A DNA stretch of 64,000 bases, from assembly GCF_004341165.1 (NCBI RefSeq), contig NZ_SLZR01000004.1:1-64000 (forward strand), in the 5' to 3' direction. The position numbers were made by a program, and so were the translations under genes. This DNA is from Reinekea marinisedimentorum (lineage in GTDB: Bacteria; Pseudomonadota; Gammaproteobacteria; Pseudomonadales; Natronospirillaceae). Each line of letters opens with the position of its first letter. Position 1 is the first letter of the stretch. Positions 1,626 through 64,000 of this stretch are shown piece by piece. Under the pieces are notes generated by a model. That model made no database searches, had not been told where the DNA came from, and saw nothing but the letters and a program-made list of their open reading frames with translations.

Positions 1626-2105
1626 CTATGCATAAACACCGTTATGATAATTCTTATTTATTTCAATCAGCTTATCGAATAAACCACCATCCATTGTTTC
1701 CTTAAATATCTCTTTAGATTGGTTTAACACTGGATTTATATGTGACTTCCGGTTGAAGTTAGTAATTGAATAGGTCTCTATGCCATAATGAGGGTGAACT
1801 ACTCTGTCGAAAAATATCTTCTCACCATTAACAATAGTTTCATCTGAATTATCTAATCCGCCAAGCCCTCCAAGGCTTTTGGGCAGGTCATAACGTGGAA
1901 TTGTTGTAAGTATGAAATCTAGTGATGCTAATGGTATTTCTAGTTGGTCACTTAAAAATAACCCACCTTTAGTTGTTTCATAACTAAAAAAAACAAGATA
2001 TTCATCAATCACATACAGCGCTTCATAGTCATCAGGGAAGAATCTAACTTTAAATTCAAATATAGGAGACTGTGTTTTAAAATCGATCAGATTAATTTTT
2101 TTCAT
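1626..2105 (-). CDS. Putative type VI immunity-like protein 1
   Basis: A 159-residue, acidic, soluble protein beginning MKKINLIDFK. Its ATG overlaps the effector stop codon by four bases (ATGA), so its translation is probably coupled to the toxin, as is usual for cognate immunity genes. It is related to the following gene over most of its length (the DQLE.PL block and the NRK...QS block). No catalytic motif is visible. The proposed function, binding and inhibiting the C-terminal domain of the adjacent 845-residue protein, is inferred from the gene order. Confidence 0.7.
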   Translation of the reverse strand: MKKINLIDFKTQSPIFEFKVRFFPDDYEALYVIDEYLVFFSYETTKGGLFLSDQLEIPLASLDFILTTIPRYDLPKSLGGLGGLDNSDETIVNGEKIFFDRVVHPHYGIETYSITNFNRKSHINPVLNQSKEIFKETMDGGLFDKLIEINKNYHNGVYA

Positions 2106-4639: not shown

Positions 4640-7181
4640 TATAGAACACCTCCGTGTTATCTAAGCTGTCTACCCAACCGCATTTAAGCAATAGCGTTTC
4701 AATAAAGTCTTGAGTATCAGGGTGTTTGAAATTGGCCTGAAAGTGTGAGTCGATGGATCCATATTTAGAATCAAAAATGCTTTTAAGCTCTTTGTAATCG
4801 ACACAGCGCTGTAAACATCGGGCAACTTGCCGTTGCTGCTTTTTCTCGAAGGCTCGATTTAGATCAGCTGCCAGAGACTTCATAAGAAGATCTTCTTCAT
4901 CAGAGTAAATCACTTTACCAGCTTCAAAATAAGGCACACCTTCGAATTCAATAAAGCCGTCATCATTCGAAATACCTTCTGCTTGAAAACCACTCTGACC
5001 TTCAAATCTGGCCTGAACATCCGGCACAGGCGCACCAGATTCGGATGTCACCTTAACTTTAACCGTTCTTACTTGATCTGGCTTATCTCGCTCATACTGT
5101 ATTGCTTCACCTTCGTGCTGAATATTTTCCAGCTCAAGAATTTCAATCTGCCCAACCCCTATCGGCTCAACCGCCGCCCCACTCACCGGTGCATTCGCCC
5201 CCGGCATCACATAACTCACATTCCCGGCAAAGCTGACACCACTCGGCCCACCTAAGGTCACTTTGTTGCCAAAGGCTTTGATGTTGCCGGCGGTATCTAT
5301 CTGGAAGCCACCGGTGCCATTACTGATGGTCATGGTGCCACTGCCGGTACCGGCAATGGTGATGTCGTTCGGTGCCTGTAACCTATAGTTACCACCGCTG
5401 GTTTTATTCAGCTGGCTACCCTGGCTTTTGATGGTGACAGCGCCTTCGGTACGTAGAGTAATGCCCTGGCTTTTGGTTTGCCAGTGCTGGTCGCCTTCGC
5501 TGCTGAAGGTCGTGTTGGCTTTACTGCGCGCAATCTGCTGCTTAGCGGATTGTAAGTGGCGGTTGCCATCGATAGCGACGTTGCTGTTGGTTTTTACTTT
5601 TTCCAGGAACGCGCCACCGTGTTTCTGGATCAGGTTTCCCTGAACGATCCAGCGCTGGTATTGCCCGGCGGTGAGCTTAATGAGGCCGTATTGGGCGGCC
5701 AGCATGATATATTGGCCACTGGTGGCAGCGTTGAGCTCCAGCTTGGTTTGGCCGTCGAACGTTTGCAGCAGTATGTTGGGCAGTTCGTCGTCTAAGGTCA
5801 GTTCGTTCTGGCTGGGGGTAACAATGCGGCCCTGATGTTTGTTGTGGCTGGTGACGGGGCCATCTTGCCCAAACTCACTGGCAAAGCCCATGATGCAGGG
5901 TCGGTTCGGGTCGTTATTTAATAGTGTGACGAGTACCGTACTGCTATCCAGCAGCGGGAAGTGCCAACCGGTGCTGAGCTCCTGATTAGCATTGGCAAAC
6001 GGCACCATGCGTTCAACCGCCGGGCTGGCATTGGTGTGGTTCAGGTGCTCGGTATTGTTGTGGCTAAAGCCCATGCGCAGTTGGTATTGACCGCGATCAT
6101 CCAGATAGGCGTAGCGGTCGGCGGATTCAATTTTCGCCGGAAAGGCCAGTGGCAGCTCGGGCATTGCCGGGAATGTGGGTGCAAAGCCGCTGGCGCGTTT
6201 TAGCAGCGAGGCACGGTTGCTGTACTTTAAACCCAGTTCGGGGTTTTGGGCGTCGTACACCTGCCCTTCGTGCTCAATGGCAACACAGGTTAGGTCATCA
6301 CAGAAGCCATCGTTGCTCCAGTAAACCGGTATGGCACTGGAATGGCCTGTGGCGATAAGCGGGAAGCTGCCCTGAATAAAGAACTGTTCTGAGCTTGCCA
6401 GAGTGTGCTTTTGGTTTTGCCGCTCGGCCTGGGCTTTGGCGCCCTCATTCAACGCTAAGGGGCTTTGGTATGGGTCGTTTGAAGCCACCGCTTTTAAGGG
6501 TTGCGCTGGCCGGCCGTGGTTTTGGTACGAGGCTGCCGGCATTACCGTTTGCCAGGTGCGCGTGAGTGGGGAATCTTTACCGGCCATGGCTTCACGCTTG
6601 GTTTGCTCAATAGAAACGATGGCGGCAGTAAAAGGCGTATGGGCAAAATCGGCCGCGAAGTTAATTTGCTCTTCTTTGCCATCGCTATCGAACCAGAAGA
6701 AGCATCCCAACTCGGCGACTAAGCGCTTAAAAAATGCCAGCTGCGACTCATTAGCCTGCACAAACACCGCGGGTAAGACCGCTTCGCTAACATCGCTGTG
6801 CCAGTGGATTTGCCAGCGGCCATAGCCTAATTCGCTTAACAATTGTTCAATAATTTCGACACGGGAGCGATACATGAACACGCGGGATTGCTGTAAATCT
6901 TGACCTCGCGCCAGGCAAGGCCTTAACAACAATGAGACCTGAGCACCTTCCTGCTCGGCCTGCTGGATATCGCAGGTAAGAGAGCGCAGATTGCCGGTAT
7001 TATCGTGAAAACTTAACTGGGCGCGCTCGCCAATAAGGTTTTGCGCATATATCAGCCGATTTTGATCTTTCAGTGTCACACTAAATTCATAACAATCGCT
7101 GAGTGCTTCTTTGCCTTGAATATGGATAACTGAAAAATGACCAGATGCCAACTGACAACGTACAGACGTTGCTTGGTACAT
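4632..7181 (-). CDS. vgrG: VgrG spike protein of the type VI secretion system with C-terminal extension
   Basis: An 849-residue trimeric spike protein. The N-terminal half carries the gp27-like region (FFKRLVAELGCFFWFD, SQLAFFKR). It is followed by a gp5-like OB fold (RMGFSHNNTEHL, WHFPLLDSSTVLVTLLNNDP) and a repetitive beta-helix rich in G-N-x-T/I repeats to about residue 660. Residues 670-849 are an extra module: a transthyretin/Ig-like beta domain (VTSESGAPVPDVQARFEG) and then a helical tail. Such tails often bind a cargo effector, here the next gene. AAGGA lies 9 bases before the ATG. The 3' quarter is visibly more AT-rich than the core, suggesting module exchange. No other type VI structural genes are in the window, so this is an orphan vgrG cassette. 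Confidence 0.93.
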   Translation of the reverse strand: MYQATSVRCQLASGHFSVIHIQGKEALSDCYEFSVTLKDQNRLIYAQNLIGERAQLSFHDNTGNLRSLTCDIQQAEQEGAQVSLLLRPCLARGQDLQQSRVFMYRSRVEIIEQLLSELGYGRWQIHWHSDVSEAVLPAVFVQANESQLAFFKRLVAELGCFFWFDSDGKEEQINFAADFAHTPFTAAIVSIEQTKREAMAGKDSPLTRTWQTVMPAASYQNHGRPAQPLKAVASNDPYQSPLALNEGAKAQAERQNQKHTLASSEQFFIQGSFPLIATGHSSAIPVYWSNDGFCDDLTCVAIEHEGQVYDAQNPELGLKYSNRASLLKRASGFAPTFPAMPELPLAFPAKIESADRYAYLDDRGQYQLRMGFSHNNTEHLNHTNASPAVERMVPFANANQELSTGWHFPLLDSSTVLVTLLNNDPNRPCIMGFASEFGQDGPVTSHNKHQGRIVTPSQNELTLDDELPNILLQTFDGQTKLELNAATSGQYIMLAAQYGLIKLTAGQYQRWIVQGNLIQKHGGAFLEKVKTNSNVAIDGNRHLQSAKQQIARSKANTTFSSEGDQHWQTKSQGITLRTEGAVTIKSQGSQLNKTSGGNYRLQAPNDITIAGTGSGTMTISNGTGGFQIDTAGNIKAFGNKVTLGGPSGVSFAGNVSYVMPGANAPVSGAAVEPIGVGQIEILELENIQHEGEAIQYERDKPDQVRTVKVKVTSESGAPVPDVQARFEGQSGFQAEGISNDDGFIEFEGVPYFEAGKVIYSDEEDLLMKSLAADLNRAFEKKQQRQVARCLQRCVDYKELKSIFDSKYGSIDSHFQANFKHPDTQDFIETLLLKCGWVDSLDNTEVFYSE

Positions 7182-41988: not shown

Positions 41989-44028
41989 CTACTCACCTAA
42001 ATAAGGGTACCTGCCAAACTGACTGATCAACGGCCCCCACTTTAAAATTAAATCTTCATCTAACTGGTCACTGCCCGCGAGCGGGTTGCTCCAACCAGCA
42101 GCCTGCCATTTATCAGCTGGGTTTAGAATGTGCAAATTAGCCAGGCCAAAATCACCCGGTATTTGCGCATCGGCGACTACGTTATCACCCACATGAACAA
42201 AAGCCCCCTTGCCAGAAACCTTGTCTTTAATGTACGACCACATAGTGCCGTTATCTTTACGCATGCCAAGTTCTGAAGAAACAAATAGCTTATAGCCGTT
42301 AGTGACACCCGCTTTTCGCAACATCAGTACAATTTGGTGCTCAGTGTAGTAGGTGTCAGAGATGATATAGATATCTTTGCCCTGCAATATCAGATTATTC
42401 AGGATATCTACCATCTCATCTTTGCTTTCTATCATTTCAAGATCGTAAGCAAACTCCAATTCGGAAAATTCCTTTGCCTCGGCATCGCTCAGGTTTAAAT
42501 CGGTGGCAAGCTGCTGATACACCTCGGTGATAGACACGTCACCCTGGAATTTTTTGCTTTTTCGTATATTGAACTCGGCTTCATTGCGCGCCGTAACAAA
42601 AACTTGCGGGGTATCAACAACCCCCTGCTTTGCCAGATGCTGACCAAGCTTTAGCTTCGCATAATCTGGTACATGGTAGCTACGGCGAACCAAAGTATCG
42701 AAAACATCGAACGAAATAATGTTAAAAGGCAGTAGCTTATAGAATACTTCTTCAGCACTGTTCACATAGTTTGAAAATATAAAGCTTTTATCTGCGGTAA
42801 ACCTGCCAAGCTCGGGGTAATAAAATAGCTGAGAATAGCCATTTGCTTCTGCTAGCAAGCCAATACAGCGCTCCAGGGCGTGGAGTTCGGAGCCATCGTT
42901 AGGCAATGGCTCTGAAGGAAAGTCTTCATAGCTGTACTTTTTTTGCAATAACTGATGAAGGGCTTTTGGCTTTGCCCAGAACATGCCGCCAACAGGATAG
43001 ATATCGAAATCTTTATCGCTTTGAATACCCCACTCCTGAAAGTACCGCTCTCGGAACGGCTTATTCTTTAACCAGTGGTTCACCCAATCGGGCATCATGC
43101 AAAAAGAAGATGGATAATAAACACCGCAATCTGGTTGGCTGGCCATATAGCAAATAGCTTCTGCCACTACTTGCTTATCGTTAAGAAGGTATTCACCTAA
43201 ATAATCCGCCCACTGTGTTTGTTGGCGGCCAGAGTATAGCGATTTTTTAGAATGAAGATGACAGAAGAGATCGTAGTTTAAAAGTTCCTGCCCAAACTCG
43301 ACCAGCATTGGCCCAAAATTACGCCCTCTGTTAGGCACCTCTTTAACTACAACAGAATTAACGGTAGGCAATGCGGCTAGCTTGCTAGTTATGCCAGCAT
43401 TAAAAGTGCCGTTACTGACACTTATAAACAGATCGACCGCAACCGGAAAAGATTCCAGACACGAAGCGTAATAATCTATGAAGTCTTCATAGAATATATG
43501 CAGGCATACCGCTATTTTCTGTTTACTTAGCAGGGCTTTATCGACCTGCGCCTGAATTTCATCGCTCGGGTGCCACTTACTGTTAAAGGACTGAACCACC
43601 CTGCCTTCATCCTTACCGGTAACCAAGTAATGTGCGAGCGGGCTTAAGCCCTGATGGTACACATCTAAATTTTGTTTCAGGTAATTTAGGTTATTAAATG
43701 CGGGGCTGGGGCTAACACCAGAAAATCGGCTTTTATTAAGATAATCCCTAAAGGCATGCTGCTCACCCTGAAACACCTTATTTTGATTTTGGCAGTACCA
43801 GTTGTAGTCAAAAAAGCCTGCTTCTTTGGCTTTCTTTAGCAACTCAGTTTCATGAATGTTAAGCGATGCACCAGTTTTATTTAAACCCAGCAATTTGTTT
43901 TGGCGTCGCATCTTTAATATAAGCAGTACTGACTCTGCTTTAAGAGCCAAACTCATTAATTTTGGGTGGCGTCGAAGCATACTACCTAGTGCAGGGAAGC
44001 GCCGCTTTATCATCACTCTATAGTTCAT
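41989..44028 (-). CDS. RgpF-like glycan synthesis protein fused to a HAD-type hydrolase
   Basis: A 679-residue, three-part protein. Residues 65-145 contain the repeated FDYNWYCQNQ / NNLNYLKQNLDVYHQGLSPLAHYL unit found at the front of many glycan-assembly proteins. Residues 165-415 are a rhamnan-synthesis F-type domain (VCLHIFYEDFIDYY, VPNRGRNFGPML, HLHSKKSLYSG, YPVGGMFWAKP). Residues 435-640 are a HAD domain with D441-x-F-D444-T in FDVFDTLV, ISDTYY, the lysine in GMRKDNG and HVGDNVVAD. All HAD catalytic residues seem present. It overlaps the preceding gene by 4 bases (ATGA). RgpF-type enzymes add rhamnose or related sugars; the HAD part may act on a phosphorylated intermediate (inference). 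Confidence 0.85.
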   Translation of the reverse strand: MNYRVMIKRRFPALGSMLRRHPKLMSLALKAESVLLILKMRRQNKLLGLNKTGASLNIHETELLKKAKEAGFFDYNWYCQNQNKVFQGEQHAFRDYLNKSRFSGVSPSPAFNNLNYLKQNLDVYHQGLSPLAHYLVTGKDEGRVVQSFNSKWHPSDEIQAQVDKALLSKQKIAVCLHIFYEDFIDYYASCLESFPVAVDLFISVSNGTFNAGITSKLAALPTVNSVVVKEVPNRGRNFGPMLVEFGQELLNYDLFCHLHSKKSLYSGRQQTQWADYLGEYLLNDKQVVAEAICYMASQPDCGVYYPSSFCMMPDWVNHWLKNKPFRERYFQEWGIQSDKDFDIYPVGGMFWAKPKALHQLLQKKYSYEDFPSEPLPNDGSELHALERCIGLLAEANGYSQLFYYPELGRFTADKSFIFSNYVNSAEEVFYKLLPFNIISFDVFDTLVRRSYHVPDYAKLKLGQHLAKQGVVDTPQVFVTARNEAEFNIRKSKKFQGDVSITEVYQQLATDLNLSDAEAKEFSELEFAYDLEMIESKDEMVDILNNLILQGKDIYIISDTYYTEHQIVLMLRKAGVTNGYKLFVSSELGMRKDNGTMWSYIKDKVSGKGAFVHVGDNVVADAQIPGDFGLANLHILNPADKWQAAGWSNPLAGSDQLDEDLILKWGPLISQFGRYPYLGE

Positions 44029-51386: not shown

Positions 51387-52127
51387 TTAAAGATTAAGCC
51401 ATTGTTCACAGTCCCAGCCTAATAATTCTTCCAGCATTTTAATTTCATAATAAAAAATTTCTCGTAGTAAATTAAAGTCTTCCAGGCTAATTCCAGTCAC
51501 ATAATCAGTTGAATGCGTATCAATGTATTGGCTACTTTCAAATTCCCCTACATTCAGAAAACTTGCAATACCAGAGAGCGTGTTTTTTAAGTCGTATTTT
51601 AGATTTTCAAATTTCAAAATTAAAACCTGCTCTGCAGGAAAAAATTGCCACAGCCTACGTAGCTGAAACGAATAAAATCCTCGGTCACAGTATGAGAAAA
51701 CTCGATTTTGGTTTGGCAAAGAAACTCGACACCGAAGAGACTCCGCTTTTATCGCATCAGAGAACGACATGTCTTCTACTCCCCGATATCGTGCCATATT
51801 CCAATGAGAAAACGCTCTTTCTATCGGATTCCTTAATACAACAATCAGCTTAATTTCAGGATTGTACTGCCAAATTCTTTTAGGCGCGTCATTCCAATAC
51901 ATATAAATGGGTGTAGACTCACCCCTGATAGAAACAGTCGTATCTCCCGGAAAAGATTTATGGTATTTACTATAATCTACCTTACCGCCATTAAAGAGCT
52001 CATCAGTATCGAAGAAGTGCACTTCTTTTCTGGTAGCCATTTCAATTTCTGAATGAGTTCTCATGTACTTATCCAGAGCCGAAGTACCACTCTTCTGCGC
52101 CCCAACTATCAGAAAATCAACTTGCAC
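51387..52127 (-). CDS. Sulfotransferase (NDST/heparan-type) (5)
   Basis: A 246-residue PAPS-dependent enzyme. FLIVGAQKSGTSALDKYM is the 5'-phosphosulfate loop, RKEVHFFD contains the catalytic glutamate region, RGESTPIYMYW follows and IKLIVVLRNPIERAFSHW is the 3'-phosphate motif. This is the best preserved sulfotransferase of the set, close to the heparan N-/O-sulfotransferase pattern. It is convergent with the 49182 gene and co-directional with the ACP gene 127 bases upstream. Confidence 0.9.
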   Translation of the reverse strand: MQVDFLIVGAQKSGTSALDKYMRTHSEIEMATRKEVHFFDTDELFNGGKVDYSKYHKSFPGDTTVSIRGESTPIYMYWNDAPKRIWQYNPEIKLIVVLRNPIERAFSHWNMARYRGVEDMSFSDAIKAESLRCRVSLPNQNRVFSYCDRGFYSFQLRRLWQFFPAEQVLILKFENLKYDLKNTLSGIASFLNVGEFESSQYIDTHSTDYVTGISLEDFNLLREIFYYEIKMLEELLGWDCEQWLNL

Positions 52128-52254: not shown

Positions 52255-52515
52255 TCACTTACCGCACGCATCGATATATGCCAGAATATCATTCAAAGAC
52301 ATCAGCTTTTCGTAATCATCCTCGTCAATTTCTACACCAAATTCATCTTGAATACGCAGAAAAACTTCAATCATATCCAGGCTGTCCAAATCAAATTTTT
52401 GAGCTAAATTATCATCTAACGTCACAGTATTAAGTAACACATCACCTTCTTTTGACTGATGAACAATCTCAAAAGTCGAGTTGAATATCGCAAGCAACTT
52501 TTTATGAGCATTCAT
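52255..52515 (-). CDS. Acyl carrier protein
   Basis: An 86-residue acidic four-helix protein with FDLDSLDMIEVFLRIQDEFG, in which Ser45 of the D-S-L motif should carry 4'-phosphopantetheine. It ends CGK rather than in the usual acidic tail. It is not flanked by fab genes: its neighbours are a radical SAM gene (13 bases upstream) and a sulfotransferase. It is therefore a dedicated carrier, for acylation or for an aminoacyl/acyl intermediate of the glycan (inference). Confidence 0.9.
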   Translation of the reverse strand: MNAHKKLLAIFNSTFEIVHQSKEGDVLLNTVTLDDNLAQKFDLDSLDMIEVFLRIQDEFGVEIDEDDYEKLMSLNDILAYIDACGK

Positions 52516-52528
52516 TTATAACATCCTT

Positions 52529-53539
52529 TCATCTGTATAACTCAATATCTCTCTCATAATCATTAAGATACAAGCAAAGACACACATCTAAATAGTCCAG
52601 CCAGCCTCGAAAAAGATCTTCACTACTAACATGTAAATCCATCCGTGAAGGAACAATTAAACTACCGGCAGCATAAAGCCTACAATCAAAGCATTCTGTA
52701 TTTGGTGCGCAACAATCGCTTGAACTATGGTGTGTATGGTCGGCCCGATAGCTGCGGTATCTTTGGCCAATGCCTAACCCTTTTTTCCCATTGTCAGCAA
52801 CTCTAGGGCAAGGGCAGTCAAATTGCTTATATAAACTCTCACTTGCCGTGTGTACTTCAGCACTATAGCGAGAAAACAAAATGGAACTTCCATACTGTTC
52901 AATTAGGCTAACAACGGTATCGTACGCTCTTTTTCTAGAGCACTCGTCTAACTGAAGTGGTGAATGCTCACCGACAGGATTACTGAAAAAGTTGAATGTC
53001 ATCCTATGACCGCTACTTACAATTCTATGCGCAACACTGGGTAATTGATCAATATTGTTTTTATTAATGGTATATACAAAAACAGCGCGATTATCATCCT
53101 GATAGTTTTTAAGCTGCTTTGGTAAACAGTTTACACCCCTGTACTCTTTATCCCCTTTTTCATCCCCCCAAACGGAAATATGAATACGATAGTTAATCTC
53201 GCGATCAATCAATTTCAAGCCGTTCGTAAATATCGTACCAAAGGGCAAAACATTCCAGGCGGCAAATAGAAGATCAGGCACAAGCGCCGGCTCTGCCCCT
53301 GCCAAGTTAAAATAATTAATCCCTCTTTCTTGCTCAGTTATAAAAAAATGCCTCCATTTTTTTACATCGGTAGAATCTTCAACATGGCTCGACTCACCCG
53401 AGAAAAAATAGCAACCTTCACACTTAAGCTGGCATCTGGTGGTAAGATCATACGCCGAAGAGCGCAACTTAAAATAGGGCTTTACTTTATTATACCGAGC
53501 ATAGATTTCAGGATTTTCCAAGTACTTTGTAAAGCTCAA
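52529..53539 (-). CDS. Radical SAM protein
   Basis: A 336-residue iron-sulfur enzyme. DLTTRCQLKCEGCYFFSG holds the CX3CX2C cluster ligands (Cys36, 40, 43) that bind S-adenosylmethionine. NLAGAEPAL is the GGEP-type motif. The C-terminal part has six further cysteines (Cys242, 244, 276, 277, 283, 286), suggesting an auxiliary cluster of SPASM/Twitch type. Coupled to an ACP, it may modify a carrier-bound acyl or amino-acid group, or a sugar. No known glycan radical SAM family is recognised, so the reaction is open. Confidence 0.85.
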   Translation of the reverse strand: MSFTKYLENPEIYARYNKVKPYFKLRSSAYDLTTRCQLKCEGCYFFSGESSHVEDSTDVKKWRHFFITEQERGINYFNLAGAEPALVPDLLFAAWNVLPFGTIFTNGLKLIDREINYRIHISVWGDEKGDKEYRGVNCLPKQLKNYQDDNRAVFVYTINKNNIDQLPSVAHRIVSSGHRMTFNFFSNPVGEHSPLQLDECSRKRAYDTVVSLIEQYGSSILFSRYSAEVHTASESLYKQFDCPCPRVADNGKKGLGIGQRYRSYRADHTHHSSSDCCAPNTECFDCRLYAAGSLIVPSRMDLHVSSEDLFRGWLDYLDVCLCLYLNDYERDIELYR

Positions 53540-53684
53540 TCTACCTCCCTAATCTGAAGCCACTTAGCTTACAAATAGTCCAATTCAACAAAACAATGAT
53601 GTACTTCAGGTCTGTATTCACGAGAGTTAGTAATTGTAAGAAAAACAAAAACAGCACAGTCTATAAGTTTTACGCAAATTCTTA

Positions 53685-54368
53685 TCAGCTTAGCCCCTCG
53701 AAATGATCATCCAAGGCACTCTCAAGCAAACCTTCATCTCGCATCGGCACAGTTATATCATGCCGGTCTGTCCCCGCCACAGGATGATTAATCACTTGAG
53801 GAACAAGTGTTATATTTTTTGCATAACGGGCATCAACAATATTTTTCTCCCCATACCATAAGCTTATCTTTGCAATTGAACAATCTGGAGAAATCAAATT
53901 TGCAAGATTCAGCTTATAAGGGGATTCTAAATTTATGATGCGATTAAGAAGTGCAACCCCTCTCTTTTCAGCCAACAAGCTTTCGTTAGTCAAGTCTGTA
54001 ACCCCACCAAATAGAATTACACTTGTCGCACCTAGCTTTAACGCTGCATAAAGACCTGCAAAGCCTCCTCCAGAACTTCCTATACAATGAATCCTTTCAA
54101 CCCCGGAAGGTATGAGCTCTTTAAGATACCCAACCAAATCACCAAGATTACTGATCTTCAAAGATGACAGTCCATTTAGGTAAAGAAGTTTACTCTTATC
54201 CCTTAAATAAACTACGTTAGCGCCGTACTTCCTTAGGTATTGGTGCAACTCCCCCAAAGGTATTCCCGCTCGCTCGGCTGCACCTGAAAATACAAATATA
54301 ATATCTTTAGAGGCTGGCTCAACAAAGCTACATACTTCATCCTGCCTTCCTTCAAACACCTCTACCAT
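53685..54368 (-). CDS. Alpha/beta-hydrolase-fold protein
   Basis: A 227-residue protein with FVFSGAAERAG, a nucleophile elbow HCIGSSGGGFAGLYAAL (Ser99 in G-S-S-G-G), then SVILFGGVTDL and a late histidine region (INHPVAGTDRHD). No signal peptide. The family includes esterases, thioesterases and acyltransferases. Next to a radical SAM/ACP pair, a thioesterase or acyltransferase role is possible. It is 145 bases upstream of the radical SAM gene in the same direction. The substrate is unknown. Confidence 0.7.
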   Translation of the reverse strand: MVEVFEGRQDEVCSFVEPASKDIIFVFSGAAERAGIPLGELHQYLRKYGANVVYLRDKSKLLYLNGLSSLKISNLGDLVGYLKELIPSGVERIHCIGSSGGGFAGLYAALKLGATSVILFGGVTDLTNESLLAEKRGVALLNRIINLESPYKLNLANLISPDCSIAKISLWYGEKNIVDARYAKNITLVPQVINHPVAGTDRHDITVPMRDEGLLESALDDHFEGLS

Positions 54369-55713: not shown

Positions 55714-56370
55714 TTATAAAGCACTTTCATATAAATCATAATCCACACTATACAATAGCTTAAGCTCCTGAACTTCATCACTACTCATATCACCTAATGA
55801 AAGCAACTCTAAATCACTCCCATTTTTTATTTTCTTCACTTCTGTAATATTTTTAATTTCAACATCTTCATTTAACGACGAGATAATTTCTAAATCAAAT
55901 AATGCTTTTTTATAATTTTCAAGCTTGTAAAGCTTTACATTCTCCGCCCCCCTCCCTAAGAATTCATATTGAAACATTTTGGAAGTGCCCCTTAAATACT
56001 CAAACAAACTGCTCTTTGTTACTCTAGCAGCCATGCTATAGCCCCTATGATTAGGGTTAATCCTCATATAATTCAGGTTTGAAATCGCCCGATCTAAAGG
56101 ATCTCTTACAACACTGAAGGCATTCCATTCATTTATATCAATAACTACCGCCAATTCATCATATGATATATGCCCAATAATTGCCGACACATCATTTGGA
56201 ATCCCATCACGAAAATTATCTTTAAATGTTTCAACTGTATAATAGTCTTTTTCTGGATTATCGTTATACAGTTTTATCACTCTCCCACTACCCTTATAAT
56301 TATTAATAATTTTATCCCGTATCGTACTACCACCGCATTTGGGAATATGAAGAAAAACCAATCCACGCAT
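55714..56370 (-). CDS. Sulfotransferase family 2-type protein (6)
   Basis: A 218-residue protein beginning LVFLHIPKCGGSTIRDKI, the P-loop of the Sulfotransfer_2 branch, with NAFSVVRDPLDRAISNLNYM as the 3'-phosphate motif. This branch covers carbohydrate 2-O- and related sulfotransferases. It differs in its P-loop (K-C-G-G-S) from the others here, so it is probably not a recent duplicate. It is AT-rich and lies between gmd and a family-1-type glycosyltransferase. Confidence 0.85.
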   Translation of the reverse strand: MRGLVFLHIPKCGGSTIRDKIINNYKGSGRVIKLYNDNPEKDYYTVETFKDNFRDGIPNDVSAIIGHISYDELAVVIDINEWNAFSVVRDPLDRAISNLNYMRINPNHRGYSMAARVTKSSLFEYLRGTSKMFQYEFLGRGAENVKLYKLENYKKALFDLEIISSLNEDVEIKNITEVKKIKNGSDLELLSLGDMSSDEVQELKLLYSVDYDLYESAL

Positions 56371-56438: not shown

Positions 56439-57404
56439 TCAACAAAAGATAGACTCAAAATCTGGCCGTTGAGATCTTCTGAGCTTATGAATAAAATTGT
56501 CCTTAAAATACTGATCAGCATCCAACTCATAATCCCCATGCTTTTCGAATAATTCTGCCAACTTCAATATAAAACGTTGTCTAAATATTCTAGCTTTAGA
56601 AATGTAAGCCTTCCTAATTCTTGTAGGACACCTAGGATTATTCACAAAGAACTCAACAGCCTCAGCCACTTGACTCTCCACCGGCTCACATACAATCGAA
56701 TTATAGGAATCATACCAAACTGATCTACCACCTCTTTCTTTTGTCGAAACCACAGGAATTCCACACAATAAATATTCGCTAGACGCAAAGCAGGCCCCCT
56801 CTTCTTCAGACAGTATCAAACCACAATGAGATTCATTGATTTTCATACAGACTTCTTCTGGAGCTAAAGGCGCTTGATTTAGGTAAGAATAATTTGGAAT
56901 ATTTTCTATAATTGCATTGCCATGATTATTCCCTGCGACCAAGGCCAAATTTCTAACCTTACCTGCCAGATAGTGGCGTTTAAAATTACTAAATCGACCG
57001 ACATAAATTGCGTCGTAAATTTTCTGAACGTTATCAATAGGCTTCATAACTAAGTTTTCATCAAGCCAAGCATTTTGATTAATAACCTGACCATTAAATC
57101 CCTCTTTCTCAAAATTTTTCTTCTCAGACTCTTCATTAAACATAAAAAAGAAATTTTCTCGATTAAGACCTAAAACATCAAATATCTTAACCGCCTCCTT
57201 AGCAAACCACTCGCTATGATACCAGCCACAATAGACAAAGAAGTAGTCTGTATCTTTAAACTTATTATAATAACTACTTAGCCATTCCCAATTATGCTGG
57301 ATATTTTCAATAATAAATATCCTCAAATTATCACTGGAGTAGTACACTCGAAAAGGGAATGCAGGGTTTGGCCAAACATAACTTGGCTCATACGCAAAGG
57401 CCAT
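56439..57404 (-). CDS. Glycosyltransferase, GT1/GT4-like
   Basis: A 321-residue protein. The C-terminal GT-B pattern is visible: YDAIYVGRFSNFKRHYLAG, then GLILSEEEGACFASSEYLLCGIPVVSTKERGG, where the E...E pair and the GIPVV strand match retaining GT-B enzymes. The N-terminal half is shorter than usual and starts MAFAYEPSYVWPNPAFPF. It is likely a nucleotide-sugar transferase of the second glycan cluster; the donor is unknown. Confidence 0.75.
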   Translation of the reverse strand: MAFAYEPSYVWPNPAFPFRVYYSSDNLRIFIIENIQHNWEWLSSYYNKFKDTDYFFVYCGWYHSEWFAKEAVKIFDVLGLNRENFFFMFNEESEKKNFEKEGFNGQVINQNAWLDENLVMKPIDNVQKIYDAIYVGRFSNFKRHYLAGKVRNLALVAGNNHGNAIIENIPNYSYLNQAPLAPEEVCMKINESHCGLILSEEEGACFASSEYLLCGIPVVSTKERGGRSVWYDSYNSIVCEPVESQVAEAVEFFVNNPRCPTRIRKAYISKARIFRQRFILKLAELFEKHGDYELDADQYFKDNFIHKLRRSQRPDFESIFC

Positions 57405-57424: not shown

Positions 57425-58402
57425 TTAAGTTAACACAAAAAAACGATCTGCATTTATCGATATCTGTTCGATATACATTGCTCTATCTGCAGCATTCAAC
57501 ACAGCCCCTTCACCTACATCCCCTCTAAGCTGGATACCTTCAAGTGGGTCACCATCCAAATATGAAACCACTAAAGTATATTGGCCGCTAGACACTTGAA
57601 ACTTCCATGGGGGCAGTACCATAACCCTAGAATAGTAACACCAAGGATCAGCAGGTCTTACATCTAACTCCGCCAAACTCTTTCCTTCCTTAACTAACTG
57701 CACCTTAAGGTTACACATACTTGGCCCGATAGAAGAAAGAGCCAAAACCTCAAGAGCTCTTTCACTTAAGACCTCGAAAGAAAAAGAGAATGAATGGTCT
57801 AAAGAAACATAATCATCCACGCTTATTACTTTTGGCAACCTTGGGTAATTTTCCGATTCAGCATAAGCCCAACAATCTAAACTATCAAAATCTAATTCAT
57901 TTAGACGATGGTATAACACTTTCGCATACTCTCTAGCGCCAAATGAGTTTGTATGCACTACATCTCTAAGATACTTACTTGGTTCAACAACTATATCGCG
58001 AAGGTGTTCACACATATCTATAAAAGGGATAGCTAGTAAATTGCAACAATCAACAACCTGCTTATAGCACTCTCTCTGACCCTTTAAATCATCCGCCCTT
58101 GGAAAATGGACCCAAACTGGAAAAACGCCATTTTTTAGCAAATGCAAATTAAAACGCTTTATCTTCTCCTCACTAAAAACTTTCATGCTGGGAGTCAACC
58201 AATCAACAATACAAACGTCAGGCTTTGCCTTAACTAGACATTCGGCATATGCGTATCCTGCATAATCGAAGTGACTTGCTCCATATGAAAGTCTTTCAAT
58301 TTCTACTTCCTCACACGGGGCATACAGCCTTTCTAAGTGATAAAAATAACCGCCCTTATCTTTTTGTGCTGTAACACTAGCACCGTAACAAAGCAATTTC
58401 AT
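57425..58402 (-). CDS. SGNH-hydrolase-like protein with C-terminal beta domain
   Basis: A 325-residue protein from ATG 58402 (TAATG overlap with the gene upstream, GGAG ahead of it; an ATG at 58414 adds four residues). LLCYGASVTAQ is the block I region with Ser in G-A-S rather than G-D-S. CIVDWLTPSM and DVVHTNSFGAREYA supply the block V-like D-x-x-H. Residues 200-325 are a beta-sandwich-like part. SGNH proteins in glycan clusters usually remove or add acyl groups. It is cytosolic as read, with no signal peptide. Activity is inferred. Confidence 0.65.
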   Translation of the reverse strand: MKLLCYGASVTAQKDKGGYFYHLERLYAPCEEVEIERLSYGASHFDYAGYAYAECLVKAKPDVCIVDWLTPSMKVFSEEKIKRFNLHLLKNGVFPVWVHFPRADDLKGQRECYKQVVDCCNLLAIPFIDMCEHLRDIVVEPSKYLRDVVHTNSFGAREYAKVLYHRLNELDFDSLDCWAYAESENYPRLPKVISVDDYVSLDHSFSFSFEVLSERALEVLALSSIGPSMCNLKVQLVKEGKSLAELDVRPADPWCYYSRVMVLPPWKFQVSSGQYTLVVSYLDGDPLEGIQLRGDVGEGAVLNAADRAMYIEQISINADRFFVLT

Positions 58403-60444
58403 TAGCTCTCCCATGAAATGAGATTATCCATGGTTTTGAATAACTCAACTAAAGATGCACTACGACACTCAATTTCATCTTGAGTCATTCGCCCTAAATG
58501 CTCAAATAAAGCAGAGTCAATTTCACCAGTCCATAAGACACTTTGATTCAGTAACTCTCGACCCAGATTATTTTCCGAAAAAACAGACAAATCACCTAAG
58601 AAAACCACTGGAATAGAACCAACAGCGATAGACTCCCAAAAGCGTAAAGTATTAGGGCCCGCACCAATCGGGCATAATGAAAACTTAGAATCACTCAAAA
58701 TCAAATTATAGCGATATGTTCTTTCCTGATGTTGATCCAAATATGCTGACTCAACCTTCCTACTTAACACCTGCTCTTCATACACTACTTTATTGAAGTG
58801 CCACTCACTACCTAAATCGACAAACACATCATCTCGACCAGATTCCTTAGCAGCTTCAAACAACCTAATACGGCTATCATCTAAATAGTGAGGCATATGA
58901 GCGCCAATAAACGAAGCTAAAAGCTTCTTTTCAGCAACAGGCTTTCGCTCCATACCTTTGCTTCGTTCAGGAGTTACATAATTTACAGCTATAAGCATCC
59001 AGCCATGCAGACGCAGCTCAGTACCAACTTCTTGCTGCTTCAACTCACTCTTTGAGTCCTTATGGGAAAGATGCAAATCAGTTACCCCAAGCTCTTGAGC
59101 AACCTCTAAAATCCTCACCCAGTGAATATGCTGGCAAACAGAATGAACCCTTAATTCAAAGCCATTATCAGAAGCAATAGCATTATAATATGCGAGAAGC
59201 GACTTAATCCTTGAAAGATATTTATCAGGGAAAACTTTCTTATCTATATAAGTCGCCCATGGCAGAGGAAGGTATGTATTAATTACTTTAACCTGAGAGT
59301 CGATATGATCTCCTGCGCGTATACTCTTATGATTATTGTAAGCTTGGAATTCTGTCGCACATGGGTACTGCCAAAAATTAACGTCATCCGCACTTCTCGG
59401 CTTATCTGACACTTCGTCAATATAAGATTCAACTATTATTGGAATTAACCCATGCACATTGGCAAGCTGAGGATTCTTACTATAAATATCTATTGGTAAC
59501 GAGTTTCCCAATCCTCTTTCATAGCCATTTCTAAATAAAACAGCACCTTCATTTGAAGTCACTGTGAAGTTAGCATTAAATTTGTATAACATGTCACCCG
59601 ATTTAAACGCATTCAAAGCTAATTCGGCACTAACAGACTTAAACTGAGCAGACACATTTTCCGTAAACTTGTTTTTTTCTTGCTGTTCTTTAATGCTTTC
59701 TCCTATCCACTTCTCCATAGATTTATTAATTGCGACCTTGTTCAATTTATTACTACGCTTTGTCCATACATCAAAATCTAAACTCGCCTCATCCTCTAGG
59801 TTATCGCCAGGGTAAACATAGGCAACCCCACCTAACAGGCGATCGTCAAGCTTCTTATCGTATGTTCTCATTTGGGATTCATGCATATGAATGCTTCGTA
59901 AGTGTTTTACTGGGTTAAACACCTTCCAGCCATAAATAGAGAACAAATAAGCGATTTTATTGTCGCAACGGGGTACACCCATGGGAAAATGCAGCAATGA
60001 AAGCAAACTGGCTGGCACTTCATCTTCAACCCGAACAGCCCATGTATCTTGAGACCAATGCGGGTTTGGGTGCATCTGGGTAGTACCCTGCAAATACTCC
60101 CAGCGAGATAGAGCAAGAAAGCCATTAGGCTCTTGTAACACTTCGCGAATAAGAGGTAAGGTATCGTCAAAATAGATATCGGAATTACACAATATACTAA
60201 TTCCACTACTACACTTTTCTTGCGTTAGTTCCAGCCAACTTCGGTAGGTGAGACGTGAATTAATGTACAGCACCTGAATATTATCGGTTTCAACAGCGCA
60301 CTCGCACCCATCATCGATAATTACAAATAACTTATCTATACTCTCATTTGTTGCATTCTTAATTAAACAAGCGTCAATTTCTCGCTGTCGTGCAACATCA
60401 TTACATTGGTAATATGAAAAAAATACATTAATAGGCGGCTTCAT
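58402..60444 (-). CDS. Large glycosyltransferase with C-terminal exostosin-like domain
   Basis: A 680-residue protein. The first 230 residues look like a GT-A-like module (VFFSYYQCNDVARQREID, LCNSDIYFDDTLPLIREV, with D-I-Y-F as a possible metal site). The last 200 residues resemble exostosin/GT47: LLASFIGAHMPHYLDDSRIRL, then YRYNLILSDSKFSLCPIGAGPNTLRFWE and SIAVGSIPVVFLGD. The middle part is unassigned. A GT-A plus exostosin pair is the plan of polymerising enzymes in animal glycosaminoglycan synthesis, although the order and families are not the same. It is co-directional with the SGNH gene and overlaps it by one base. Confidence 0.7.
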   Translation of the reverse strand: MKPPINVFFSYYQCNDVARQREIDACLIKNATNESIDKLFVIIDDGCECAVETDNIQVLYINSRLTYRSWLELTQEKCSSGISILCNSDIYFDDTLPLIREVLQEPNGFLALSRWEYLQGTTQMHPNPHWSQDTWAVRVEDEVPASLLSLLHFPMGVPRCDNKIAYLFSIYGWKVFNPVKHLRSIHMHESQMRTYDKKLDDRLLGGVAYVYPGDNLEDEASLDFDVWTKRSNKLNKVAINKSMEKWIGESIKEQQEKNKFTENVSAQFKSVSAELALNAFKSGDMLYKFNANFTVTSNEGAVLFRNGYERGLGNSLPIDIYSKNPQLANVHGLIPIIVESYIDEVSDKPRSADDVNFWQYPCATEFQAYNNHKSIRAGDHIDSQVKVINTYLPLPWATYIDKKVFPDKYLSRIKSLLAYYNAIASDNGFELRVHSVCQHIHWVRILEVAQELGVTDLHLSHKDSKSELKQQEVGTELRLHGWMLIAVNYVTPERSKGMERKPVAEKKLLASFIGAHMPHYLDDSRIRLFEAAKESGRDDVFVDLGSEWHFNKVVYEEQVLSRKVESAYLDQHQERTYRYNLILSDSKFSLCPIGAGPNTLRFWESIAVGSIPVVFLGDLSVFSENNLGRELLNQSVLWTGEIDSALFEHLGRMTQDEIECRSASLVELFKTMDNLISWES

Positions 60445-60461
60445 GCTAAATATCTTACTTC

Positions 60462-61418
60462 CTAGTTAAATCCAAATTTTGCTGATATCTTTGGAAAAGA
60501 TTCAGACATTTTTATCTCATTTTGGTAAGCCTCATCTAATTGCCTACGACTACGAGGACCAATTATATTAGATGACCTTCCACTATCACCTGTTACTCTA
60601 AAAATAGGGTAAAGAATATCAAAGCTTTCATCATAAGGAAGGTTAAGCTTTTCTGTCATTTTCATCATTTCATTGTGCGGCTTGGCAGTGAAATCTTCAT
60701 ATAAGAAAATTTCATCATCTGAAAACTGAGAAACAAGCACCAAAAACCGGCGACAATATTCCTCAAAACTCTTTGGTGAAAAATGAACCCAGTTATTTTT
60801 TACTAATGAAGCATATGCATCTATTGGGTTTCGAATTGTGAGTATAGATTTAACGTCATACGACTCGGAGAGAATCTGAGATACCACACTCTTTTGCGGC
60901 AGCTTTTCTGAAACGTTGAAGTCTGAATGAGTATGATCTCTTAATACAAGATGGCCGCCACTCTCATGAACATGTTCGAATACTGCGTCAATACTCTGTT
61001 TGAATATTTTTTTTGCCAGCGTCTTCTGATTAGGGACAGATGCATATTTAGACAAAGAAACAATGTCACTGGGTGAATATTTTGGCTTTTCACGCCCCAA
61101 TGCAAGATCACTATAAGGATGAACTTCACTGAGTAAGAAAACGTTTGGCATTGCCGACATACATTTAGATATCAGGGTACCACCGCTGCAAGCCAAGTGA
61201 TGTATAATTCTAATAGTAGGCTTCCTGGATGAGTGCTTCTGGCAGGCCTGCTCGCACCGGACCAACAAGGAATTGGTATCAACTATAGTTTCAATGTTAT
61301 CTGGGACTCCAATATTCTCAGATTCATTTGGCTTTAATGAGGAAACAGAAGACGCCTCTATTAAGCCAACAGACTCATCAAGCAGCCTTTTAAACTCCTC
61401 AAAACTAGATGGCATCAC
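60462..61418 (-). CDS. Sulfotransferase family protein (7)
   Basis: A 318-residue protein. TIRIIHHLACSGGTLISKCM is a P-loop-like strand-loop with CSGGT. VKSILTIRNPIDAYASLVKN is the 3'-phosphate motif, and DEIFLYEDFTAKP is the family-typical E-D-F strand. RVTGDSGRSSNIIGPRSRR is also seen in sulfotransferases of this type. It starts one base after the stop of the FkbM/coiled-coil gene, so translation is probably coupled. Confidence 0.8.
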   Translation of the reverse strand: MMPSSFEEFKRLLDESVGLIEASSVSSLKPNESENIGVPDNIETIVDTNSLLVRCEQACQKHSSRKPTIRIIHHLACSGGTLISKCMSAMPNVFLLSEVHPYSDLALGREKPKYSPSDIVSLSKYASVPNQKTLAKKIFKQSIDAVFEHVHESGGHLVLRDHTHSDFNVSEKLPQKSVVSQILSESYDVKSILTIRNPIDAYASLVKNNWVHFSPKSFEEYCRRFLVLVSQFSDDEIFLYEDFTAKPHNEMMKMTEKLNLPYDESFDILYPIFRVTGDSGRSSNIIGPRSRRQLDEAYQNEIKMSESFPKISAKFGFN

Positions 61419-63611
61419 TCAACTTCCTTCATGGGTATTATTAGCTTCTAAAAGTTCTGGGTGCTCTTTTTGCAGCTGAAAGTAATACTTTGAAGCCAAT
61501 GTTAACTTTTCCTTTAACTCAGCTACTAAATCTACTAGACCCCTTTCTGATTCAACTTTCTCAGCATATAAGCTCCGTAGTTCGTCCAAATCTATTTGAG
61601 ACTTAGCAAGCATCTTCTGACCCAAGCTAACCGCTCTATCTTTTTCTTCCAGCTTAGCTCTTAGCTCTTCTAATTGTTCCTTCAATGAATGAGCCCAATT
61701 ATTATGCTCTTGGTACCTAGTATGCTCCTGATCACGCTGCTTTGTTACTTCTTCTAGTGAATTTTCTAAATTAACCTTCTCTTCACTTAATGAATTCAAG
61801 TTCTGCTGAAGCTTTCCAATTTTTACAGTAATTACTTCCGCCTCTTCCGTAAGCATTTGGTACTTTTCTTGGAAGCTACTAAGCTCATTGCTTAACGCTG
61901 AATTTTTATCAGTTTTTAGTTTAAGCTCCTGTTCAGTGTGAGCCAATAGCTCCTCTTTCGCACTTAAGGATTGCTCAATTACAGCTAAACGTTCATTAGC
62001 CTGTACGGCCTCAGCTCTCGCAGACTGAAGCTGCTCCGTGGCATCAACCAGCTCCACCTTTAAGGTATTTTTTTCTTCAGATTCTTTCTGGGAAAATAAT
62101 TGAAGTTTATTAATCTTATTTTCCAGCGATTGTTGCTCTTGCGCTGAAGCGAGCAATTTTTGTTCTTTCTCTGCCAAGATATTTTCTAAGCGTGTAACAC
62201 TAGACTTGTACTGAGAGTTTTCAGCTTTCAAACTATCCAGGCTTTGCTTTAGTTCCTTAGCTCCTTCTATCAGAGCTTCTTCACTGGATTTCAGTGTTTG
62301 AATTTGACTTTCAAGTTCGGAAGCTAACGCTTTGAAGGTATATTTTTCTTCGGTCTCTTTCTGGGAAACCGATTGAAGGTCACTAATCTGGTTTACTAGT
62401 GACTTTTGCTCTTGCTTTGAAGCGAGCAGCTTTTGCTCTTGCTCTGCCAGGGTACTTTCTAACCGTGCAACGTTAGACTTGTACTGAGACCTTTCAGCAT
62501 CCAAGCAATTCTGGTTTTGGCTTAGTTCCTTAGATATTTTTTTCAGAGCTTCTTCACTTGATTTCAGAGTTTGAACTTGGTTTTCAAGCTCGGCAACTAA
62601 CGTTTTACCGGCATCGCGTTCTAATTTTAAATTACTCAGCTCTGTTTTAAGAGAGTCGATTTGATCCTTCTGCGATACAAGTAATCCATTAAACTTAGCC
62701 TTTTCTGCTTCTAAGTTCTTGGCTATTTGGTTGGCGTTTTTATCTGCCTGAGTTTGCCTGGCTATAGCATTTTTCTTATCAATTTCAAAAGCAGCTGCTT
62801 TGTTGGTTATTTCCAGCAACTGAGCGCTAAGATTAGATTTATCGAGCTCTAGCTGGTTAATCATCTTTTGCAGTTTAACTTGCTCATCATCGCTTGCCTT
62901 TTTAAGCGCATTATTTTCAACCGCAAAACTTTCACACTTAAGCTGTAATGCCTTGTTTTTCTCTCGAAGTGCTTTTAACTCTAGCTTATTTGTATCTTTC
63001 ACAAAGGTATAGCTTGTAAAGATGGAGCTTTCTTTAGCTTCATGCGCTAGTGCAAAGGCAGCCTTTAACGGCTGAATGTCGTTAAAAGGTACTTCCGCAG
63101 AGGGCATTTCGGCATCATTTATTGAAACAGCCTGTACCACTATTACAGTAAATTTATTTAACCACTCTGCATTTATAGCCGCCAATATGGAATTTTCTGC
63201 ACCGTTCAGTTGCAATACAAGTATGTTTTGATTGCCTTCTTGTAGGCTTACACTTTGCAGTAAATCATTAATGCCTATGGCTTCTACTTCAGCATGCTCA
63301 ACCTTTAGGTTCTTAAACAGCTTTTTAAATGCCAGCGGCTCTACAATACTGCTGAATTGCTGTGGCACAGAATTGTAAAAGGTTACATTTTTGGTTTGCT
63401 CAGCCACAACCTTGTTCACAACGCTTACTGTGCCGGAACCGTTAGTTTTAAGCGATAACTGCTGAGCCACACTTGGGTTAGCTTCCACCAGGTGTATGCT
63501 CTTCGCATTCAGTTGATGGTAGCCTTCAAGTTCGGTACATTGGCCAGCACCTATGTGAATAATAGTGCCTACATTATTCAGCGGTATGTTTAAATTTTTC
63601 AAACTGTTCAT
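61419..63611 (-). CDS. FkbM-like methyltransferase domain with a long coiled coil
   Basis: A 730-residue protein. Residues 1-210 resemble an FkbM-type SAM-dependent methyltransferase: TIIHIGAGQCTELEGYHQL is the nucleotide loop, HLVEANPSVAQQL carries the acidic residue after strand 2, and LVLQLNGAENSILAAI is the later G-x-E motif. Residues 215-715 are an almost unbroken coiled coil rich in E, K, Q, L and A. Two exact-period tandem repeats of 91 residues (13 heptads) lie in it. A SAM domain on a long coiled coil recalls WbdD, the O-antigen chain terminator and ruler of E. coli O9a. A kinase domain is not seen here, so the comparison is by layout only. Confidence 0.75.
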   Translation of the reverse strand: MNSLKNLNIPLNNVGTIIHIGAGQCTELEGYHQLNAKSIHLVEANPSVAQQLSLKTNGSGTVSVVNKVVAEQTKNVTFYNSVPQQFSSIVEPLAFKKLFKNLKVEHAEVEAIGINDLLQSVSLQEGNQNILVLQLNGAENSILAAINAEWLNKFTVIVVQAVSINDAEMPSAEVPFNDIQPLKAAFALAHEAKESSIFTSYTFVKDTNKLELKALREKNKALQLKCESFAVENNALKKASDDEQVKLQKMINQLELDKSNLSAQLLEITNKAAAFEIDKKNAIARQTQADKNANQIAKNLEAEKAKFNGLLVSQKDQIDSLKTELSNLKLERDAGKTLVAELENQVQTLKSSEEALKKISKELSQNQNCLDAERSQYKSNVARLESTLAEQEQKLLASKQEQKSLVNQISDLQSVSQKETEEKYTFKALASELESQIQTLKSSEEALIEGAKELKQSLDSLKAENSQYKSSVTRLENILAEKEQKLLASAQEQQSLENKINKLQLFSQKESEEKNTLKVELVDATEQLQSARAEAVQANERLAVIEQSLSAKEELLAHTEQELKLKTDKNSALSNELSSFQEKYQMLTEEAEVITVKIGKLQQNLNSLSEEKVNLENSLEEVTKQRDQEHTRYQEHNNWAHSLKEQLEELRAKLEEKDRAVSLGQKMLAKSQIDLDELRSLYAEKVESERGLVDLVAELKEKLTLASKYYFQLQKEHPELLEANNTHEGS
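62046..62591 (-). repeat. 273-bp intragenic tandem duplication in the coiled-coil gene
   Basis: Copy one (62319-62591) encodes ELENQVQTLKSSEEALKK and onward; copy two (62046-62318) encodes ELESQIQTLKSSEEALIE and onward. Each is 91 codons, and the frame and heptad register are kept. The copies have diverged, so the duplication is not recent. Confidence 0.8.
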
Positions 63612-63622
63612 AGGCGGTTCAC

Positions 63623-64000
63623 TTATTTAATACAAACGTTAATGTTCATCTGGTTGTTAGCTGGCTTCTGGTAATTGGTAAAAAGCCAATCACCCAAATC
63701 CTGGAATAACGCTTCACTGTAGCCGTTGGTACCGTTGGGTTCGCTGTTTAAAACAGCGTTTACCTGCTGAAGCACCAACAATAACTGGCCATGCAAAGTT
63801 TGCTCATTGGCTTCATACAGTTTTAACCCTAACCTTTTCGCCTCTCGGTTTAGCCATACATTGCTCATACTAATAACCGTAAGTTTATGCTGAGCGGCTA
63901 GCCATAGTACGCCCGAGCTTTGGTTCTTATAGGCATGTTCGGCATAGTTAAACAGCACTGCATGTGAGCGACTAAATAGCTTGTGCAACTCATCATGACT
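63623..64000 (-). CDS. C-terminal part of an unidentified glycan-cluster protein (partial)
   Basis: The frame is open to the window edge and gives at least 126 residues ending NNQMNINVCIK. It contains YAEHAYKNQSSGVLWLAAQHKLTVISMSNVW and REAKRLGLKLYEANEQTL, a globular alpha/beta pattern. It lies 12 bases ahead of the FkbM/coiled-coil gene in the same operon. The C-terminal end of a glycosyltransferase is possible but there is no decisive motif. The true start is outside the window. Confidence 0.6.
   Translation of the reverse strand, partial: SHDELHKLFSRSHAVLFNYAEHAYKNQSSGVLWLAAQHKLTVISMSNVWLNREAKRLGLKLYEANEQTLHGQLLLVLQQVNAVLNSEPNGTNGYSEALFQDLGDWLFTNYQKPANNQMNINVCIK

Follow-up and report, generated by a model that had tools for sequence, protein, structure and literature searches.

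The locus analysed here, in a window of 64,000 nucleotides of Reinekea marinisedimentorum DNA (the whole stretch under study), raises the question of whether a protein that joins a methyltransferase-like head to a long coiled coil is a ruler of glycan length, as the original prediction had proposed by analogy with WbdD, or has another role in the assembly of a surface glycan. Coiled-coil rulers of glycan length are known for a few O-antigens, where the coil bears an active capping enzyme. A kinase domain is a feature of the O9a and O7 types of terminator and is not found in the O8 WbdD, and in the characterised terminated systems a carbohydrate-binding module couples capping to export. This module of Wzt, which reads the cap, is present in all characterised capped O-polysaccharides (PMC11231755; PMC3482155). 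In our tentative reading, to which we give a little less than an even chance, the protein encoded by gene B is one of a pair of pseudoenzyme stalks that place a tailoring or terminating enzyme in the assembly of a sulfated glycan. The parts of gene B are as follows.

61419..63611, minus strand: gene B, 730 aa with an ATG start; methyltransferase-fold head and long coiled coil
62997..63611, minus strand: head of B (residues 1–205); predicted class I SAM-methyltransferase fold resembling FkbM, with loss of signature residues (AlphaFold2, 2py6 alignment, motif table)
61647..62996, minus strand: coiled coil of B (about residues 206–655), without proline, heptad period 3.50
62332..62604, minus strand: duplication copy 1 (residues 336–426), 91 residues or 13 heptads
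62059..62331, minus strand: duplication copy 2 (residues 427–517), 91 residues or 13 heptads
61422..61646, minus strand: C-terminal tip of B (residues 656–730), ASKYYxQLxxEHPELL, conserved

Coiled Coil of B and its Tandem Duplication

Residues 182–717 of B form a run of 536 residues without proline, in which hydrophobic periodicity peaks at 3.50 residues, bearing out the 500-residue coiled coil that had been claimed. Within it lies a 273-bp direct tandem repeat (62059–62331 and 62332–62604; 79% DNA identity, TRF score 706), whose copies are in exact frame and encode two 91-aa blocks of 13 heptads each. The match of B to itself at a lag of 91 scores 228.5, whereas none of 60 shuffles that preserve the heptad register exceeds 48, and the duplication is therefore not just coil self-similarity; the in-register duplication of 91 residues was thus correctly predicted. 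Because its two copies are only 79% identical, recent slippage is ruled out as their origin and strain-to-strain variation in repeat number is unlikely at the window locus; judged by this identity, the duplication is old. The coil, if continuous, would extend for about 70–80 nm (calculated arithmetically, not measured, at 0.1485 nm per residue). Matches of coil segments to SMC and Rad50 profiles were rejected as coil similarity, which is expected of any long coil.

Distribution of B and Variation in Coil Length

Profile searches identified B in G001, G018 (a Saccharospirillum MAG), G092, G108 (Marinimicrobium alkaliphilum), G346, G677, and G639, and a scan with the sulfotransferase described below identified it also in Alteromonas portus, Rheinheimera maricola, and R. 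baltica. True members are present in about 1–2% of genomes in the order and class samples, and in 11 of 11 loci, from several gammaproteobacterial families, B lies in a glycan cluster together with a second coiled-coil protein, A. Coil-only matches (G102, G292, G321, and G326) were left out of the member count, and a match in G057 (L007) was spurious, since it falls in the region of an ABC substrate-binding gene. Pattern matches from a genome-contig scan with the full B protein encoded no relative, and a plasmid search recovered only an isolated Azospirillum FkbM protein, with neither A nor a glycan cluster around it.

The coils of these proteins span about 130–500 residues, with proline-free runs of about 105–536 residues. 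In G639, the coil contains 5.8 copies of a 126-bp (42-aa) unit that are 94% identical; other tandem units are found in R. maricola (75 bp and longer) and A. portus (75 bp), and weaker repeats are seen at the protein level in G092 and G346. At 91, 42, and 25 residues, the lengths of the repeat units are compatible with heptads or with a mix of heptads and hendecads. From these comparisons, coil length in B is strongly variable among relatives and grows via tandem duplication. The G639 homologue (L062:8146-10005) has about six near-identical 42-residue (6-heptad) repeats, which are possibly strain-variable, and the R. baltica homologue (L035:7664-9920) has an assembly gap (a run of N) in its coil, probably caused by internal repeats.

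Methyltransferase-Like Head of B

The FkbM profile TIGR01444 matches residues 17–159 of B at 25.0 bits (E = 2.1e-5), under its cut-off of 37.7 bits, and the G346 relative scores 39.6 bits, over the cut-off. An AlphaFold2 model of the head (pLDDT 76, pTM 0.78), built on an alignment of six sequences, has a predicted class I SAM-methyltransferase fold. Nearly all of its best matches in Foldseek and VIA are SAM-dependent methyltransferases or close relatives, and the FkbM structure 2py6 aligns with it over 151 residues (Z 9.7). A head-profile sequence search of solved structures gave no significant match, so that the fold assignment rests on the model. The N-terminal domain thus has, as predicted by modelling, the SAM-binding fold on which the original prediction depended, and its resemblance to FkbM in sequence is weak (25 bits, under the cut-off).

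We compared ten B heads with 12 canonical FkbM proteins at the FkbM signature (DxQG and a later E). Of these signature residues, invariant in 12/12 canonical proteins, the B heads keep the D in 3/10, the Q in 0/10, and the E in 0/10, and the active capping methyltransferase that had been envisaged is not borne out. The window head retains the GAG glycines and the post-motif (ribose-binding) acidic residue, whereas in the G092 head this acidic residue and the greater part of the SAM loop are gone as well. In phylogenetic terms, the B heads form one group apart from, and next to, the sampled canonical FkbM proteins (support 95/93), and B is, on this sequence evidence, a separate clade known from 11 loci. 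The pattern of losses suggests that catalysis by the head has been lost or changed; some members, including that of the window, may still bind SAM, and other residues of the head may serve in catalysis. No kinase domain was found in B with Pfam or NCBIfam, and past about residue 205 the protein consists of just the coil and the tip.

Partner Protein A

Protein A is encoded just upstream of B in 11/11 loci, either directly or with one glycosyltransferase-like gene in between, and it carries repeated coil modules of the LLLQLHQVQEELE / ENELLLLQLHQVQEELE type. Apart from general coiled-coil profiles, it matches no Pfam or NCBIfam family. Nearly all of the best 50 structure matches to a model of the A head from Marinimicrobium (pLDDT 66.6, best Z 8.0) are sulfotransferases, and a sulfotransferase fold is predicted for this head at modest model confidence. 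A is comparable in this predicted fold to the sulfotransferases (Sulfotransfer_3; PDB 4gbm and 4gox), to which the product of the gene after B also belongs, and differs from them in the addition of a coiled coil containing LLLQLHQVQEELE-type repeat modules and in its lack of a PAPS-binding loop, a loop of the RSGT type being absent from all A sequences examined. Since the A head is without the PAPS loop and the B head is without the FkbM signature, the heads of both stalk proteins seem to derive from enzymes and to be stripped of the signature motifs.

Sulfotransferase Gene and C-Terminal Ends of B

The genes that surround B in the window are listed below.

63623..64000 (3' part; continuing to genome position 64885), minus strand: probable glycosyltransferase of 420 aa between A and B, assigned from context and sequence
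60462..61418, minus strand: sulfotransferase (Sulfotransfer_3) directly after B, SGGTLISK loop kept; conserved partner
58402..60444, minus strand: exostosin/GT47-like glycosyltransferase, next in the operon (PF03016, E = 2.7e-7; 30.6 bits, just missing the cut-off of 33.4)
56439..57404, minus strand: GT4-type glycosyltransferase (PF00534, E = 9.8e-6)
55714..56370, minus strand: second sulfotransferase (Sulfotransfer_2, profile match)
51387..52127, minus strand: third sulfotransferase (Sulfotransfer_1, E = 7.9e-15)
41989..44028, minus strand: RgpF-type protein with a HAD-like part (PF05045, E = 4.6e-46)

A sulfotransferase directly follows B in six loci (viz. the window, G018, G108, Alteromonas portus, Rheinheimera maricola, and R. 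baltica). Against a Sulfotransfer_3 cut-off of 27 bits, the window copy scores 21.2 bits and its A. portus homologue 28.9 bits. The SGGTL PAPS-binding loop is invariant in the three aligned copies (window, G018, and G108) and is present in A. portus and R. maricola. When an alignment of these three copies alone was used to scan 84,980 species genomes, six loci were found, all with A and B immediately upstream, the loci added being those of A. portus and the two Rheinheimera species; five of the six are independent, as the MAG contigs L032 and L033 are almost the same.

The six B proteins that precede a sulfotransferase share an EHPELL-type tip, with pairwise identities of 34–61%, compared with 20–27% for the heads of the same pairs, and the tip is the best conserved part of B among most members with a sulfotransferase next to them. 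No sulfotransferase directly follows B in G001, G092, G346, G677, or G639. In G346 and G677, a methyltransferase-like domain containing a DGPP motif is fused to the C-terminus of B in place of the tip (weak Pfam matches only), and B of G001, G092, and G639 has a different, AEAQIELIKDLLL-like tail. The gene order and the fusions at the C-terminus of B make the end of its coil look like an exchangeable enzyme site. Two further observations concern fused domains: the B homologues at L026:6940-8925 and L056:7213-9246 have a second, C-terminal methyltransferase-like domain after the coil (EFGSG and DGPP motifs), and L063:8100-9752 in G639 encodes a fusion of a sulfotransferase, bearing an RSGT loop, with a coiled coil whose AEAQIELxKDLL tail is also that of B in this genome.

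Glycan Cluster, Export and PAPS Supply

The RgpF-type neighbours that had been noted are confirmed by the PF05045 match at 41989–44028 (E = 4.6e-46), and the 420-aa probable glycosyltransferase between A and B matches no Pfam or NCBIfam family. Beyond the window end, away from B, the operon continues with A, rmlB, rmlD, rmlC, rmlA, a wzt-like gene, and a wzm-like gene; cysD, cysQ, a transporter gene, cysN, and cysC lie further out on the same strand, and the window locus is, by these gene assignments, equipped with a full PAPS supply. The wzm/wzt pair that the original prediction had suggested seeking next to position 64000 is present as predicted genes at C4:69932-71439 (L002:9932-11439), 6–7.4 kb past the window end. 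Also in the glycan cluster, adjoining ORFs at 52255–54368 encode an acyl carrier protein, a radical SAM-like protein, and an alpha/beta-hydrolase-like protein; elsewhere in the window (2102–7181), judged from sequence only, a gene that probably encodes VgrG, the spike of type VI secretion, precedes an ORF of 845 aa whose product may be its cargo effector.

An ABC-2 permease is encoded 2 kb from B in G001, 7 kb in the window, 10 kb in G092 and R. baltica, 13 kb in R. maricola, 22 kb in G108, and 33 kb in G346. No such permease was detected in the vicinity of B in A. portus, G639, or G677, which indicates that the module is not coupled to ABC export; the contig of G018 does not extend far enough to tell. 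Judged from sequence, the neighbours in G092 and Rheinheimera resemble the Kps capsule exporter. The exporter ATPase of the window (246 aa) has only ABC-type ATPase matches, and a recognised Wzt carbohydrate-binding module is present in 0/7 ATPases (that of the window and six from related loci).

Comparison with Characterised Systems

WbdD of Escherichia coli O9a and Klebsiella pneumoniae O3 shares with B an N-terminal SAM-methyltransferase fold, a long coiled coil, and a locus for an ABC-exported glycan (PMC3482155, PMC5082667); a partner-binding C-terminal region is, for B, a proposal. Where WbdD-type terminators recruit the polymerase and contact the membrane through the C-terminus, what B has at this end is a conserved tip. 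B differs from WbdD in having no kinase, a degenerate FkbM-like head, and a much longer coil, and its locus differs in having a separate sulfotransferase, a second stalk protein, and a Wzt without the carbohydrate-binding module. The WbdD-type features of the B locus are thus the SAM-methyltransferase fold (predicted), the extended coiled coil, and the ABC exporter of the same locus, whereas an intact capping enzyme on the coil, a kinase, and a Wzt bearing the binding module are missing. Hence, the WbdD-style reading holds as far as a SAM fold on an in-register-duplicated coil in the locus of an ABC-exported glycan is concerned, and fails for active capping and for the coupling of capping to export (no kinase, and no Wzt module in the 7 ATPases). 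The architecture of B also resembles that of ORF6 of Klebsiella pneumoniae O7, a methyltransferase-kinase terminator (PMC11231755), but the conserved SAM residues, the kinase, the CBM-like domain, and the fused glycosyltransferases of ORF6 find no counterpart in B. The likeness of B to the FkbM methyltransferases (TIGR01444; 2py6) lies in its fold, its weak profile match, and its neighbouring group position, and B is set apart from them by the loss of the signature D, Q, and E, the fusion to a long coil, and the constant pairing with A. A limited literature search for FkbM in connection with a coiled coil and O-antigen, or with a sulfotransferase and exopolysaccharide, found none, which leaves absence unproven.

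Proposed Role of B and Alternative Explanations

The pairing of A with B and the adjacent sulfotransferase make a scaffold for a sulfated surface sugar likelier than a proven length ruler. Further grounds for reading B as a stalk scaffold are the tip shared by the B proteins that precede a sulfotransferase, the loss of its signature residues, the predicted sulfotransferase-like head of A without a PAPS loop, the fused domain at the place of the tip, and the PAPS, rml, wzm, and wzt genes that run in the same direction. B would serve as a stalk in a cytoplasmic complex that assembles the glycan, with its catalytic function reduced or absent, its 500-residue coil as a spacer, and its conserved C-terminal tip as a docking site. 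It would act jointly with A and with the sulfotransferase encoded directly after it, the A–B stalk pair positioning this enzyme with respect to the glycosyltransferases by which a glycan that is sulfated and contains rhamnose is lengthened, and the product would leave via the Wzm/Wzt-type ABC transporter of the same cluster. We infer that A, B, and the sulfotransferase are in contact, the tip binding the sulfotransferase and the coil spacing it; control of length by B is possible. Against this reading stand the GAG glycines and ribose-binding acidic residue kept by the window head, the five loci in which B is not directly followed by a sulfotransferase, the ABC-2 permease not detected near B in three loci, and the modest confidence of the A model.

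A WbdD-like ruler is somewhat unlikely. Its coil would keep a chain-ending enzyme, either the docked sulfotransferase or, in G346 and G677, the fused methyltransferase, at a fixed distance from the polymerase, and coil length would thereby determine glycan length. Such a ruler would account for coils that are very unequal among relatives (proline-free runs of about 105–536 residues) with head and tip kept, and that have been expanded in the window, G639, Rheinheimera maricola, and Alteromonas portus by tandem duplication of different units, and an enzyme at the coil end agrees with the layout of known terminators (PMC11231755). However, the Wzt module of all characterised terminated O-polysaccharides (PMC11231755) is found in 0/7 of the ATPases, the window duplication is old (79% identical), and the action of the sulfotransferase at the chain end is a supposition. 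We regard as distinctly unlikely the joint claim that B and A, as a two-stalk pseudoenzyme system, hold the real capping enzyme (the docked sulfotransferase or, in some lineages, the fused methyltransferase) at a distance from the polymerase that is fixed by the coil, with a sulfate cap ending the chain and repeat number setting its length.

It is quite improbable that the head of B is an active FkbM-type O-methyltransferase, just anchored by the coil, that modifies the glycan, for although its predicted class I SAM fold, the GAG motif and post-motif acidic residue of the window protein, and the score of G346 above the TIGR01444 cut-off (39.6 bits) agree with activity, the residues invariant in 12/12 FkbM proteins are lost in the clade (D 3/10, Q 0/10, E 0/10), and in G092 the acidic residue and the greater part of the SAM loop are missing too. 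The match of coil segments to SMC-like profiles, shared with any long coil, would fit a cytoplasmic protein with a general role in scaffolding or in envelope shape whose gene lies in a glycan cluster by chance, and the pairing with A and glycan-cluster setting in 11/11 loci from several gammaproteobacterial families render this explanation very improbable indeed.

Significance

Our analyses bring to light in A a partner family that lies outside the known Pfam and NCBIfam families except for general coiled-coil profiles. Unlike known rulers, the heads of the two stalks look dead, and the likely enzyme is separate and exchangeable (a sulfotransferase or a methyltransferase). The coil of B expands by tandem repeats in several lineages, and G639, with about six 42-residue repeats of 94% identity, offers a natural test bed for relating repeat number to glycan length.
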